A DNA stretch of 64,000 bases. It comes from Sphaerochaeta pleomorpha str. Grapes (lineage in GTDB: Bacteria; Spirochaetota; Spirochaetia; Sphaerochaetales; Sphaerochaetaceae). The notes under the pieces are model-generated. The model saw only the letters and a list, made by a program, of their open reading frames with translations, searched no databases and was not told where the DNA came from. The DNA lies in NCBI RefSeq assembly GCF_000236685.1, contig NC_016633.1, forward strand, positions 1,798,001 to 1,862,000, in the 5' to 3' direction. Below, in pieces: positions 184 to 5,162 of the stretch. Position numbers and translations under genes: made by a program. Position 1 is the stretch's first letter. Every line of letters begins with the position of its first letter.

Positions 184-203
184 TGTCATGATAGTTTTCG
201 CCA
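184..203. repeat. Left terminal inverted repeat of the IS3-type element
   Basis: TGTCA-TGA-TAGTTTTCGCCA matches the reverse complement of 5179-5198 at 17 of 20 positions. The three mismatches are contiguous (TGA against ACG). Confidence 0.75.
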
Positions 204-221
204 CTAGGAGGGCAAAACATC

Positions 222-710
222 ATGAGATATTCAACAGGATTCCAGGCTTCGGTAGTCCGGAAAGTACTGCAGCGTGGAGACAAAAGCGTCTATCAGGTTT
301 CAAAGGAAACGGGTATCAGTTCTACTACCATTCACAGCTGGATGCTACGGCACAAAGCTGGTAAGCTTGACCTGGACACAGCGGGAGAGCCGACGGTTTC
401 CCAGCGGAGTCCCGGAGAGAAGCTTGCACTTCTGCTTGAAAGCAAAACCCTCGGAGAAGAAGATCTGGGGGAATGGCTGAGACGGCAAGGTCTGCACTCC
501 GAGCACCTCCCCTTGTGGGAACAGGAGTTGACCGGTATGGCAAATGACAAGCAGGGAGAAATACGCAACGAGAACTCGGCACTGAGGAAAGAGAACAAGC
601 GTCTGGAAAAGGAGCTTGCCCGGAAGGAGAAAGCCCTGGCCGAGGTCGCGGTGTTGCTCACATTAAAAAAAAATCATCCGAACCTGTTCGGTCAGGACGA
701 GGACAACTGA
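222..710 (+). CDS. IS3-type transposase OrfA
   Basis: This 162-residue protein supplies the DNA-binding half of the transposase. Residues about 1-50 form a helix-turn-helix (STGFQASVVRKVL ... VSKETGISSTTIHSWMLR). The last third is a charged coiled coil (KENKRLEKELARKEKALAEV), matching the leucine-zipper region of IS3 OrfA proteins. The ATG follows GGAGGGCAAAACATC, a good ribosome site. The gene ends at 708-710, and orfB lies in the -1 frame, reached through the A9 run at 665-673. IS3 elements normally make a fused OrfAB by -1 slippage. Confidence 0.85.
   Translation: MRYSTGFQASVVRKVLQRGDKSVYQVSKETGISSTTIHSWMLRHKAGKLDLDTAGEPTVSQRSPGEKLALLLESKTLGEEDLGEWLRRQGLHSEHLPLWEQELTGMANDKQGEIRNENSALRKENKRLEKELARKEKALAEVAVLLTLKKNHPNLFGQDEDN
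665..673 (+). other. A9 slippery tract, probable -1 ribosomal frameshift site
   Basis: Nine consecutive A residues lie near the end of orfA, in the codons for LKK. A -1 shift here leads into an open frame reading KKKSSEPVRSGRGQLISEQE and then into orfB with no stop. Programmed -1 frameshifting on A-runs is the established way that IS3-family elements make the OrfAB fusion. Its use here is inferred from position and frame. Confidence 0.7.
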
Positions 711-745
711 TATCGGAGCAAGAGAAAGCCGAGATCCTTGCCTTT

Positions 746-1318
746 GTGGATGAGGCAATGCTTCTCGGAGTTTCCCAGAGAAAGACCTGCGAATTTCTTG
801 GAATTGCCGCCAGAACCATCCAGAACTGGCGGCATGAAGGTCTCTGCGACAAGAGGAAAGGGAGCAGCCGGAGGGTTGCCCACAGCCTCACCCAGAATGA
901 GCAGGATGCCTTCTTTTCATTGGCTACCAGCCCCCGGTTCCGGGACAATACGCCCGAGCAGATAGTTGCAACGCTTGCCCAGGAAGGAACTTATATTGCA
1001 AGCGTATCCTCGTTGTACAGGATCCTGCGCAAGCGCGATGCACTCCGTCACCGGCAGGAGTCAAGGAAACCAGCAAAGGCCCAGGTCATGGAAAGGCTTT
1101 CTGTCACCGGTCCCAACCAAATTTGGGCCTGGGATATCACCTGGCTGAAAACCGAGGTGCGTGGTATCTTTCTCTATGCCTATACGATCATCGATGTCTA
1201 TGACCGTAGCATCATAGGCTGGACCATAGAGGACCATGAGTCAGACATCCTTTCCCAGAGGCTCTTTTCACGGGTAACCCGTGACCTGAGGGTGGTACCA
1301 GCTGTGATACACGGCGAT
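746..1318 (+). pseudogene. IS3-type transposase OrfB, 5' part (interrupted)
   Basis: The sequence reads from a GTG at 746, or in the native fusion from the frameshift at about 670. An N-terminal HTH (FLGIAARTIQNWR) and an HTH_21-like region are followed by the rve integrase core. The first catalytic Asp is in WAWDITWLKTEVRG, and the second is in VIHGD, whose GAT codon ends exactly at 1318. There the RIT element interrupts the gene. Joining 1318 to 4746 restores the continuous reading VIHGD-NGHPMRGM and gives a protein of about 329 residues. As it stands the frame runs into the insert and stops at 1370-1372. Confidence 0.85.
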
Positions 1319-1399
1319 TTCAACGATAAATTAGTTTTGCCGAGACCTGTCAGTAATCTTTCCGTTGCCTAGAATTACCAACAAAGATTCGGCAAAATC
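1311..1399. repeat. Left inverted repeat of the RIT element
   Basis: About 89 bp here is inverted at 4631-4719. The outer part is almost perfect (TTCAACGATAAATTAGTTTT onward, including CAGTAATCTTTC and TTGCCTAGAATTA). A short diverged block follows, and the inner GATTCGGCAAAATC matches again. The outermost 8 bp, ACGGCGAT (1311-1318), belong to the IS transposase gene and recur directly at 4738-4745. Confidence 0.85.
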
Positions 1400-1405
1400 A
1401 TTTAT

Positions 1406-2424
1406 CTATAATCCCATTAGCCGCTTGAGAATTTGGGGGTCTTCCCAGTCCTTACTTGTTCCTACCACGTTAGGATTCGCTTTCTCCACTGCCGCGGTGA
1501 TCATGGCAAGATTGGCTGTGGCATAATGCGATATGCTGGAAGAATCAGCATGACCGAGGAATTTGGCCACATTCTCCAACGGCATCCCGTTCAGGTACAG
1601 GTGCATGGCACGGGTCGACCTCATCAGATGAGGGTGTATGCCAGAAAGAACCTCGATGCAAGTTTTGCTTGCCTCTTCCCCATGCTTCTTGAGCAATACG
1701 GCAATGGCATCTGTAGACAACTTCGAAGGCCCATTTCGCTTCCTAGCATAAAACAACGGCCTCTTGGGATCCTTGTAGGATGAAACATGTGGATGTAGGC
1801 ATTGAGATGGGCTACCGTCTTCTCCATCAACGGTATCAGCCTGGTCTTGTTCCCCTTTCCCGTAAGCACTACATAGCATGGAGAGGCTTCCAGATGGAGA
1901 GATCCAAACTGCACATCAACCAACTCCTGTACCCGGCATCCGGTATCATACATGAAGATCATAATCATACAATCTCTTCTTCCCAGCCTTGTATTGGGGT
2001 CTGGAGCCAAGAGCAAAACTTTGAGAGCCTTCTCTGAAAGGTATTCCACAGGCTTTTGCTCTTCCCTGGCTTTGGGCATGGTCCTGATTGATTGGTAGGT
2101 GGCATACAGGGGTACATACTCATCTGCACAATAGCGGAGAAAACTTTTCAGGATTGAGAGCCTGAGGTTACATGTAGAGTCCGCAAGCTCATCTACCAAA
2201 TGCAGGTGTGCTATGAACTCCTTGACATTATCCCTGGTGAAATGATCCAAGGAAAGAAGCGAGGCCTCAACATTTCGGTGCTTACTCATGTAGGAGACAA
2301 AGGAGTACAACCCATACCGGTAGGTCTCAATCGTCCCTTTGCTCATTCTTCTGACATCCTTCAGGTAGACGTCAAAGTAATCCGTTACAAGACGCCACAG
2401 GTCAGCCTTTTTAGTCTTAGCCAT
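1406..2424 (-). pseudogene. Third tyrosine recombinase of the RIT trio, frameshifted
   Basis: The first 215 or so residues read in one frame (MAKTKKADLWRLVTDYFDVY ... AYIHMFH) and contain a SAM-like N-terminal domain and the catalytic Arg in YDTGCRVQELVD. Near 1775-1790 the coding potential moves to another frame, which starts at SSYKDPKRPLFYARKRNG and carries the HxxR-type PHLMRSTRAM, the LGHADSSS box and the Tyr of HYA. The two halves overlap by about 255 nt, so a single small indel near CATGTTTCATCC accounts for it. The start overlaps the end of the middle recombinase by 8 nt, which suggests coupled translation. Programmed frameshifting is possible but there is no obvious slippery motif. 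Confidence 0.75.
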
Positions 2425-3415
2425 GGCTCACCTCCGGCAGGTTGTCCCCAAGCTTTCCATACAGACGCTCGAAGACTGGAAAGAATTCAGGTACCCAATG
2501 CAGATAATACTCGGTATTTTCAATGCAAGAATGTCCAAGATACAGCCTGAGGTAAGGCAGCAGGGCATACACATCCTTTCCATCCTCAATCCATGTGTTG
2601 ATGTTCCTGAATACAAAATGATGCCTCAGGTCATACAACCTGGCATTGTTCCCATTGGAGGATTGCCCTATGCCTGCATCCCTTAGGATGTGACTGAATG
2701 CAATTGAAAGGGAGGAACATTTGTAACTGTCATTAGCTTTTGTAGGAAAGAAATATTTTCTTTCTGGCAAGCGTTTCTGCATGATGAGGTCATATTGCTT
2801 CAATTCCAACAGCAACATCTCTCCAATTGGCAATCTCCTGTCCCTATAGGTCTTTGTCCCCTTGATGTCGAGCCATCCATGTTCCAGATCTACATCCCCG
2901 ACCAGAAGTTTCCTAGCTTCTCCAGGCCTGAGCCCGCAGCAATGGATGGTTGAGAACAGTTGTGGAAGCACATACTGTCTGCTCATCGCTTGGGAAACCG
3001 GGTGGAGGGAACCCATGACCTCGTCAGAGAAGAGTTTTCTTAGCTCATCCTCAGCAAAGAAATAGGGAACATAATCAGGGACTTTTGGGCAAATGCCGTA
3101 GGGAAGGACGTATTGGTCGCTTTCCCCGATTGATTGTAGGTATCTTCCCAGATAGCGTACCAGCAGGATCCTACAGACCTGGCGCTGGACGGACTCCTCA
3201 TCCAACCTGCATATCCACCCGGAGAGCCTCTCCTTGGTAAGCAATGGAGGATACTGGTGTGAATCCCAATATGTGTCGAACATCTTTGTATAGAACAGCA
3301 AGGAGCCAGACTTGTGGGAGTACATATAATGTTCATCAAATCTTTCTATCCTTGAAGCCAGGCTGCTGATATAGCTCATACCGTTGCCCCCTTGTAGTAA
3401 GGGGCAAGGCAACAC
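2417..3415 (-). CDS. Second tyrosine recombinase of the RIT trio
   Basis: This 332-residue phage-integrase-family protein is predicted to act at the element ends together with its two neighbours. Visible catalytic positions are the Arg of CCGLRPGEARKLL, the H/R box LYDLRHHFVFR and the nucleophile region YLGHSCIENTEYYLHW. Its first codons overlap the end of the upstream recombinase by 40 nt, so the annotated ATG may be upstream of the true start; an internal ATG at MSYISSLASR is an alternative. The overlapping three-gene arrangement fits one transcript entering from the right end. Confidence 0.8.
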   Translation of the reverse strand: MLPCPLLQGGNGMSYISSLASRIERFDEHYMYSHKSGSLLFYTKMFDTYWDSHQYPPLLTKERLSGWICRLDEESVQRQVCRILLVRYLGRYLQSIGESDQYVLPYGICPKVPDYVPYFFAEDELRKLFSDEVMGSLHPVSQAMSRQYVLPQLFSTIHCCGLRPGEARKLLVGDVDLEHGWLDIKGTKTYRDRRLPIGEMLLLELKQYDLIMQKRLPERKYFFPTKANDSYKCSSLSIAFSHILRDAGIGQSSNGNNARLYDLRHHFVFRNINTWIEDGKDVYALLPYLRLYLGHSCIENTEYYLHWVPEFFPVFERLYGKLGDNLPEVSHG

Positions 3416-4572
3416 GGCCTGATCTTCTCATATTCGACGGTGGTATAGATAGTGGTCGAATCCATATCCTTATGACCAAGCATGTTGCTGATGGTTCCCA
3501 AAGGTACCCAATTCTGCAGCTGTTTCGATGCTGCATGATGTCTCAGCAGATGTGATCCTTTCCGCTTGGAATCCCGAATCCCAAGTTCAGCAAAAACCCT
3601 CCGGATAATTGCATATATGGCAGAATGCCCTCCAAGTTTATGATAGGGTTCACGATATGATAAAAATACATAACGAATATTGCTTCTAGGTCGCTCCTCC
3701 AGTAGATATTTCTGCATACAGTTGCCTATGACAGGCAAGAGAGGGAGAACCAACAGGTTCCGGGTCTTTGACTGAACTAATGACAAGGTCCCTTTGATCC
3801 AGTCTATATTTTCCAGTTTCAAGTTTATGATATCATTGGCCCTGACACCGAGATAGTAGGTCAATGAAAGAATTGTCCTATCCTTCCAGGAGCCATTCCC
3901 ATTGCAAATGTAGCTGGAGATGGCTGCATCCTCCTCTATTTCAAGCATGGGGATGATGGGAGTATGCCGGGGACAATTGGTTGGTATTGCTTGAAATATT
4001 GCACCCTCATAGCCCAAATACCAGAAAAACTTTCGCATGGCAGAGGCTGCAACACGAATATTAGTCGATACCCATGTGCCTCTCAACACCTCAAAGAAAG
4101 AAATGACCAAGGATCCATTGATTTCTGCGATGTTATGAATATCATTTGCACCCAGATGATTGAGAAACTGGGTTGCTACGTTCCTGTAGCTGTCAATAGT
4201 AAAGACTGACTTCCCTTCAGATTGCAGGTATGCCAGGTATTGTTTCAGCACAGGCTTGAAGGTATCCTGGATAAGGACTGTCTTGGTAACGTTATATCGG
4301 AGATACTCATCGTGAATTGTTCCTGTTTCCAGATAACATAGCATGCGAGAATAGGTAGGATAAGCAATTATACTGGTTTTTCCCTGCCTGATGAGTTCAT
4401 TTGCCTGGTATCTGACAGCTTCGAGCAACCCCATTCCTTCTTCAAGCGGTTGTTGCAACTCCTTCTCTACCCTTAGATAGCAAAGTTCATATAATCGCAA
4501 GGTGGCTTTGTTAAGATAGCGGGTTTGGTCATAGTCCTGCAGAACTTTCAAAACTGCTGACAATTGTTCCAT
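3376..4572 (-). CDS. First tyrosine recombinase of the RIT trio
   Basis: This 398-residue protein is the first gene of the trio. A long N-terminal arm/core-binding region (residues about 1-230, with YLAYLQSEGKSVFTIDSYRN) precedes the catalytic domain. Catalytic residues can be placed in YYLGVRANDIINL (Arg), GSHLLRHHAASKQL (His/Arg), MLGHKDMDSTTIY (His and Tyr). The ATG at 4572 is preceded on its strand by AAGGAGAATATTGT, a strong Shine-Dalgarno. Domain order and length match RIT/Tn554-type recombinases. Confidence 0.85.
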   Translation of the reverse strand: MEQLSAVLKVLQDYDQTRYLNKATLRLYELCYLRVEKELQQPLEEGMGLLEAVRYQANELIRQGKTSIIAYPTYSRMLCYLETGTIHDEYLRYNVTKTVLIQDTFKPVLKQYLAYLQSEGKSVFTIDSYRNVATQFLNHLGANDIHNIAEINGSLVISFFEVLRGTWVSTNIRVAASAMRKFFWYLGYEGAIFQAIPTNCPRHTPIIPMLEIEEDAAISSYICNGNGSWKDRTILSLTYYLGVRANDIINLKLENIDWIKGTLSLVQSKTRNLLVLPLLPVIGNCMQKYLLEERPRSNIRYVFLSYREPYHKLGGHSAIYAIIRRVFAELGIRDSKRKGSHLLRHHAASKQLQNWVPLGTISNMLGHKDMDSTTIYTTVEYEKIRPCCLAPYYKGATV

Positions 4573-4630
4573 ACAATATTCTCCTTTGGATGAATACAGT
4601 ATGTAGTCATTTCAGATATTGGCGTGAAAA

Positions 4631-4719
4631 GATTTTGCCGAATCCCTAGTGTTAATTCTAGGCAACAGAAAGATTACTGACAGGTCTCGGCAAAACTAAT
4701 TTATCGTTGAAATCGCCGT
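4631..4719. repeat. Right inverted repeat of the RIT element
   Basis: This is the inverted partner of 1311-1399. Its outer end, AATCGCCGT (4711-4719), is the reverse complement of the target-side ACGGCGATT at the left end. It runs straight into the perfect palindrome at 4712-4745. Confidence 0.85.
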
Positions 4720-4745
4720 TTTGTTGAATTCAACAAAACGGCGAT
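4712..4745. repeat. 34-bp perfect palindrome at the right end of the RIT element
   Basis: ATCGCCGTTTTGTTGAA is followed directly by its exact reverse complement, centred on GAATTC. It lies between the right inverted repeat and the IS gene and has no counterpart at the left end. The outer arm ends in ACGGCGAT, the same 8 bp as the target at 1311-1318. It may be a recombinase-binding or crossover site, or a trace of the previous insertion site. Confidence 0.9.
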
Positions 4746-5162
4746 AACGGCCACCCGATGCGGGGCATGACACTGGCTGTATTCCTTGATTCGCTGTTCA
4801 TCAGCCGGAGCTATTCGAGGCCCCGCTGCAGCAATGACAACGCATTCATCGAATCCTGGCACAGGACACTCAAATACTCGGTGGGTTACCCAAAGCAATT
4901 TTCTACGATTTCCACCGCAAGGATCTGGTACGCCGATTTCGTCGCTTGGTACAACAGTTGCCATCTACACTCAGGCCTGTCCTACGTTACCCCTATACAG
5001 GTAAGGAAGGGCGAGGCCCAACAGTTGTATTCCGAACGAAACAAGACAATCATAGAGGCAAAAGCCGCTCATCCGGAACGCTGGAGAAAGGGAAAAACCA
5101 GAACCTATGCACTCCCAGCGGTAACGGCATTCTACCGTCCGGCAGAAAAGGCAGTTTGCTGA
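4746..5162 (+). pseudogene. IS3-type transposase OrfB, 3' part
   Basis: This continues the interrupted OrfB from the codon after the second catalytic Asp: NGHPMRGMTLAVFLDSL, then the third catalytic residue, the Glu of CSNDNAFIESWHRTLKY, and the conserved WYNSCHLHSGLSYVTPIQV. It ends with a stop at 5160-5162. No intact start precedes it, so it is silent unless the RIT element excises precisely. Confidence 0.85.

Follow-up and report, generated by a model that had tools for sequence, protein, structure and literature searches.

The stretch of the Sphaerochaeta pleomorpha str. Grapes chromosome analysed here (64,000 nucleotides; NC_016633.1, positions 1,798,001 to 1,862,000; hereafter the window, whose numbering is used below) carries an IS3-type insertion sequence (IS) whose transposase is split in two by a recombinase in trio (RIT) element of 3427 bp (1319-4745), with terminal inverted repeats (TIRs) and an adjacent palindrome (Table 1). 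Three adjoining tyrosine recombinase genes all lie on the minus strand in the order ritA, ritB and ritC with overlaps of 4 and 8 bp, the former being an ATGA overlap of ritB with ritA given by the probable ritB start, an ATG at 3379. The RitA, RitB and RitC families were told apart by profiles built from Sphaerochaetales trios, and these profiles also pick out trios on pHG1, a plasmid of described RITs (L137-L139; loci of our survey are given L numbers). Mobility is indicated by near-identical copies at differing sites, and the window element is a RIT element. In an intact second copy, all three recombinases contain R...HxxR...H...Y, the catalytic residues predicted from sequence, with the motifs GVRAND/HLLRHH/LGH/IY, GLRPGE/YDLRHH/LGH/YY and GCRVQE/HPHLMR/LGH/HY. 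No extra small gene of the srap, ginD or tnpC kind was found between the element ends, where there is no room for one and where the listed open reading frames (ORFs) overlap the rit genes.

The element sits directly behind a single codon of the transposase. The GAT codon ends at 1318 and the gene restarts with AAC at 4746; when the flanks are joined they read VPAVIHGDNGHPMRG in a single open frame of 395 codons, and deletion of the element thus makes the IS3-type motif VIHG-D-NGHP whole again, regaining HGDNG as the preliminary description of this locus had proposed. As it stands, the interrupted transposase ORF simply ends at 1372. The interrupted residue is the second Asp of the DDE triad (D2), and the upstream half can be aligned with Pfam rve (PF00665) as far as profile position 73, which is a stopping point of independent RIT insertions as well. 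The 8 bp ACGGCGAT are found at both junctions (1311-1318 and 4738-4745), and their complement ATCGCCGT lies at 4712-4719, within both the 34-bp palindrome and the 93-bp inverted repeat; the preliminary description had the junctions and these repeats right.

Table 1. Features of the RIT element and of the interrupted insertion sequence in the window
Feature	Coordinates	Strand	Basis or remark
IS3-type insertion sequence, 5' part, up to HG of HGD	188..1317	+	NCBIfam NF033516 IS3 and Pfam rve matches; uninterrupted homologues L185-L187; outer limits of the IS read by eye from imperfect 18-bp ends
IS3-type orfA	222..710	+	
IS3-type orfB	from 746	+	
Target-side 6-bp crossover spacer CGGCGA	1312..1317		in ACGGCGAT 1311-1318; deduced from survey
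TIR, RitC side	1318..1403		inverted repeat of 93 bp, 1311-1403/4627-4719, 92%
ritC, frameshifted	1406..2424		ORFs 1624-2424 and 1406-1879
ritB, tyrosine recombinase	2417..3415		overlaps ritC by 8 bp
ritA, tyrosine recombinase	3376..4572		398 aa
TIR, RitA side	4627..4712		
Inner 6-bp spacer TCGCCG	4713..4718		
Palindrome P, TTTTGTTGAATTCAACAAAA	4719..4738		portion of the 34-bp perfect palindrome at one element end, 4712-4745
Outer 6-bp spacer CGGCGA	4739..4744		in ACGGCGAT 4738-4745
Transposase 3' part from Asp codon (AAC GGC = NG), with catalytic Glu	4745..5162	+	Pfam rve_3

A second copy at the same motif

A second copy, 99.9% identical over 3434 bp, is located at 1,216,509-1,219,945 of the same chromosome, where it occupies this motif, as (HT)-D-NG, in a different DDE transposase. 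Its RitC is intact (339 aa) as compared to the frameshifted RitC of the window copy. Next to RitA stands the 3' half of this other transposase (DNGAAMRDER...), and next to RitC the 3' half of a further IS3-type gene copy; both flank genes are found uninterrupted in relatives. Uninterrupted homologues of the other transposase have CHTDNGAAMRDER at the site, with CACACCGA(C/T)AATGG or a near variant; their DNA there reads CACACCGACAATGG or CACACAGATAATGG, and this explains why the second copy has the 8-mer ACACCGAT at its RitC end. To judge from these flanks, the copy most likely entered between HT-D and NG and then exchanged its left flank, palindrome included, with an element residing in an IS3-type gene; no reciprocal product of such an exchange was seen in the host genome.

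Related elements share an end plan and codon-level sites

The RIT trios surveyed came from the host's order and phylum, GTDB contigs and plasmids, with further genome samples centred on Butyrivibrio, Eubacterium minutum, a betaproteobacterium and a Bacteroidia metagenome-assembled genome. About 50 further insertion sites were resolved in Spirochaetota, Bacillota, Actinomycetota, Bacteroidota and Pseudomonadota; the flanks could be joined at 41 distinct sites, and at most of these an open frame runs through a conserved motif. The ends follow a common plan of TIR (often TTATGCCGAAG-like), 6-bp spacer, P, 6-bp spacer and target, where P is a palindrome of 18-20 bp such as TATCCTGAATTCAGGATA. A model with an 8-bp spacer and an 18-bp palindrome was discarded, as it assigned one base wrongly and so created a stop codon in the IS66 sites L076 and L071, whose frames are open again with a 6-bp spacer and a 20-bp palindrome. 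The search of genome contigs gave 43 matches, 31 of which were not RIT trios and were nearly all lone Xer-like genes; a RitA search of viral contigs gave no matches, and an alignment of 17 RitC sequences was too diverse for use in the contig scan. In many draft genomes the RIT makes up a whole contig of about 3.4 kb, with contig ends at or close to its inverted repeats or palindrome (L054, L134, L154, L166, L167 and others of 3.0-3.9 kb); these contigs may represent collapsed repeats or circles. The RitA frame has about 630 codons in L046, L047 and L053 against about 400 elsewhere, the extra part being N-terminal.

The preference for HGD-type sites anticipated in the preliminary description is borne out by these relatives, and chance is not enough to explain it, as the second copy and a series of relatives all cut this one residue. 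IS3-type genes are cut at D2 in L063, L112, L136, L146 and L178, where as in the window both flanks could be joined, and in L064, L124, L125 and L144, where a single flank was read; D2 is also the residue cut in the IS30-type gene (D-N-G) of L062, again read on one side. The consensus of these targets is CA[NNNNGA]YNNGG, i.e. H-x-D-x-G. Other RIT clades target other conserved motifs, mostly in mobile-element genes. Within IS66 transposases, insertions are located at the catalytic Glu (L053, L071, L076, L128, L177), at D1 (L168), near D2 (L107, L141), at GR-KN (L120, L206, L211) and at CW-AHARR (L210, L228), and in IS66 OrfB at T-DMR (L069, L128) and PFSG (L140). IstA of IS21 is entered at D2 (L172) and in the Glu region (L135, L160, L217), IstB at Walker A (L126, L176) and Walker B (L227); IS481 is also among the families cut at a catalytic Glu or Asp, and L046, L047 and L051 were placed by eye at DDE Glu sites. 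Beyond these, the targets comprise PQGG of intron reverse transcriptases (L145, L151, L152), PCQ of C5 methylases (L127, L179), HxxR-H of tyrosine recombinases (L139, L207, L226), a DESH box (L222), and EHQS of Rpn/YhgA-like proteins (Transposase_31; L108, L111) on Salmonella and Serratia plasmids. At L052 (8896-9058), the RIT adjoins a group II intron domain V-like sequence (GTACGTACGGTTCTG), an RNA-coding rather than a protein-coding target.

Independent insertions stop at the same Pfam coordinates: rve 71-73, IS66 259/260, IstB 104, C5 methylase 75 and Transposase_31 76. A later sample (Burkholderiales, Bacteroidales and more Clostridia) repeats the pattern with the IstB DE-box, the IstA Glu region, HxxR-H twice and, in IS66, GR-KN and CW-AHARR. 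Among DDE sites, 15 of 23 lie at most 4 codons from a catalytic residue against 9% expected (binomial 5e-11, kinship ignored), and in IS66, when local conservation is ranked over 12 unselected homologues, the insertion positions come out at the 76th-100th percentile (P 0.0003, 5 distinct positions). Most of the targets are dispensable mobile-element genes, as would be expected if RITs inserted anywhere and merely persisted where a disrupted transposase does no harm. However, such survivorship does not predict the same codon, the same Pfam position and clade-specific motifs across independent insertions, and we regard it as very improbable.

Target preference is inherited within clades

In a tree of concatenated RitABC (quick search, LG+G4), the D2-targeting RITs together with L061 form a single clade (SH-aLRT 99), and the window clade inserts almost only at H-x-D-x-G. 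The reverse-transcriptase targeters and the methylase targeters each form a clade with support of 100. Target labels require 24 changes on the tree as compared to 38.4 when shuffled, and none of 200 shuffles was as clustered, near-copies adding to this clustering. The targeting of a conserved active site in transposases, suggested earlier from the window alone, is real; it is passed on within the RIT clade and occurs in several phyla.

The gene that holds L061 adjoins an OLD-like ATPase and is not a transposase gene, and yet L061 is inserted at GAT followed by AATGG (D-NG), lacking CA in its target and keeping GATAATGG. What is read is hence the DNA sequence and not the identity of the gene. 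The strong enrichment in transposase genes could also arise if the recombinases recognised the coding context or the transposase itself, for example through recruitment by it. This seems the least credible of the alternatives, as L061 offers the same D-N-G DNA in a non-transposase gene and the sites of other clades lie in methylases, reverse transcriptases, ATPases and group II intron RNA.

Spacer and polarity of insertion

The preliminary description had further suggested that the element chose a target matching its own 8-bp end, a claim which is not supported in that form. It had also proposed that the element could move with host IS elements; the transposase that it occupies is cut in two. 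The three spacers are identical to one another in the window copy, L146, L178 and L136, as such homology choice would predict, and partial identity (the GA end) may still aid strand exchange. However, spacers of the target side and the element side differ in L061 (TTCAGA/TCTGGA/TACGGA), L063, L112, L127, L128 and L162, and identity can also result where one target family is entered repeatedly; choice by homology is accordingly rated as unlikely. Full spacer identity is thus unnecessary, and because the spacer varies between junctions, the 8-bp match is better read as a strand-exchange spacer with a 6-bp core.

P is found on the RitA side in 22 elements and on the RitC side in 19, whereas its side relative to the target gene is constant in each of ten target classes (29 of 29 sites), an agreement which also contradicts random insertion. 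The element is therefore oriented at random, and it is the palindrome that keeps to one half of any given target.

Some insertions are chimeric, joining two 3' halves of different target genes (L010, L103, L156) or two 5' halves (L064/L065, L183); L151 is chimeric as well. In E. minutum (L064/L065), the two 5' halves are HTD and QTD, and the palindrome is absent. Assembly error was rejected as a source of such flanks, as the palindrome stays on the predicted side where readable. Chimeric flanks suggest that RIT copies have recombined with one another and that genomes have been rearranged.

Proposed mechanism

Taken together, it is highly probable that RITs insert site-specifically at a codon-level motif, with a DNA target inherited by the clade; a two-core circle containing the palindrome is proposed. 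In the window clade, the recombinases would exchange strands over 6 bp of spacer that coincide with the codons of the second catalytic Asp. The circle is expected to read TIR-spacer-P-spacer-TIR, and either spacer could recombine with the target, allowing entry in both orientations. Whichever core recombines, the left arm of the target would always gain a TIR and the right arm P; fixed polarity with random orientation may thus be explained because the circle has two equivalent core sites around the palindrome. The anatomy, the recent copying, the codon-level sites, their inheritance by clade and the polarity are seen in the sequences themselves, while the circle and the allotment of recombinases to arms are inferred. 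The target would be recognised as DNA, with different clades tuned to other DNA motifs, most of them in mobile-element genes, whose protein products are conserved and often catalytic there. The probable advantage is a target that is abundant, stable in sequence and dispensable, possibly with silencing of competitors.

Several points weigh against this explanation. RIT strand exchange is deduced here from sequence comparison. Some RITs lie elsewhere, in HlyD-like (L149), phage HK97-gp10 (L147) and GmrSD (L072) genes, and some flanks are apparently non-coding (L159) or in unidentified sequence. About half of the fetched trios had no clear TIR or P or ran into contig ends. Many motif calls were made by eye, and outside DDE enzymes, whose catalytic residues were defined beforehand, a 'conserved motif' was partly named after the fact. 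The binomial value above is overstated, since sites in one clade are not independent.

Relation to known elements

RITs of Cupriavidus metallidurans CH34 and C. necator pHG1 are described inside IS66 tnpA, a Tn6049-type transposase and radC in PMC2864759 and PMC3414803, where the inverted repeats and palindrome are already published; the RitA/B/C families are described in PMC8138268. The window element resembles the CH34 and pHG1 RITs in its three overlapping A-B-C tyrosine recombinase genes, its size of about 3.5 kb, its inverted repeats and its palindrome, and is distinguished by the H-x-D-x-G preference of its clade. Neither a target rule at the level of codons nor a spacer or polarity for RITs was found in the accessible portions of the literature, a search outside of which stands Ricker 2013 (Plasmid 70:226), and no experimental demonstration of RIT mobility was found in the RIT literature as far as available. 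RITs in transposase genes were thus known before; codon-level targeting seems undescribed, with priority unsettled. SE/GInt/Tn554-type elements share with RITs several tyrosine recombinases, a short spacer (6 bp in SEs) and a site preference, and the accessible text of PMC10214605 and PMC5385486 makes no mention of a palindrome in them; the preferred sites of GInts are at ssb gene ends, and the target is usually left functional (PMC10214605, PMC5385486). They differ from RITs in having a fourth gene, which is essential in GInts.

Inteins, homing introns and IS-borne group II introns occupy codons of the most conserved active-site motifs and splice out, sparing the host protein. Unlike these, a RIT insertion breaks its host gene. 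On balance, we are inclined to regard RITs overall as a bacteria-wide class that homes to codons for the active sites of other mobile elements. The target arms would have been re-tuned from clade to clade, and an attachment site with two cores around a palindrome would make integration free in orientation but fixed in polarity. If so, RITs would gain a target that cannot mutate away, as inteins and homing introns do, by breaking genes that the cell can spare, and they may naturally keep the activity of IS, IS21, IS66 and group II introns in check. From this rule one would predict an attB of about 20 bp, making the three-recombinase mechanism directly testable, and it is suggestive of a natural diversification of tyrosine recombinase target arms over many conserved motifs.
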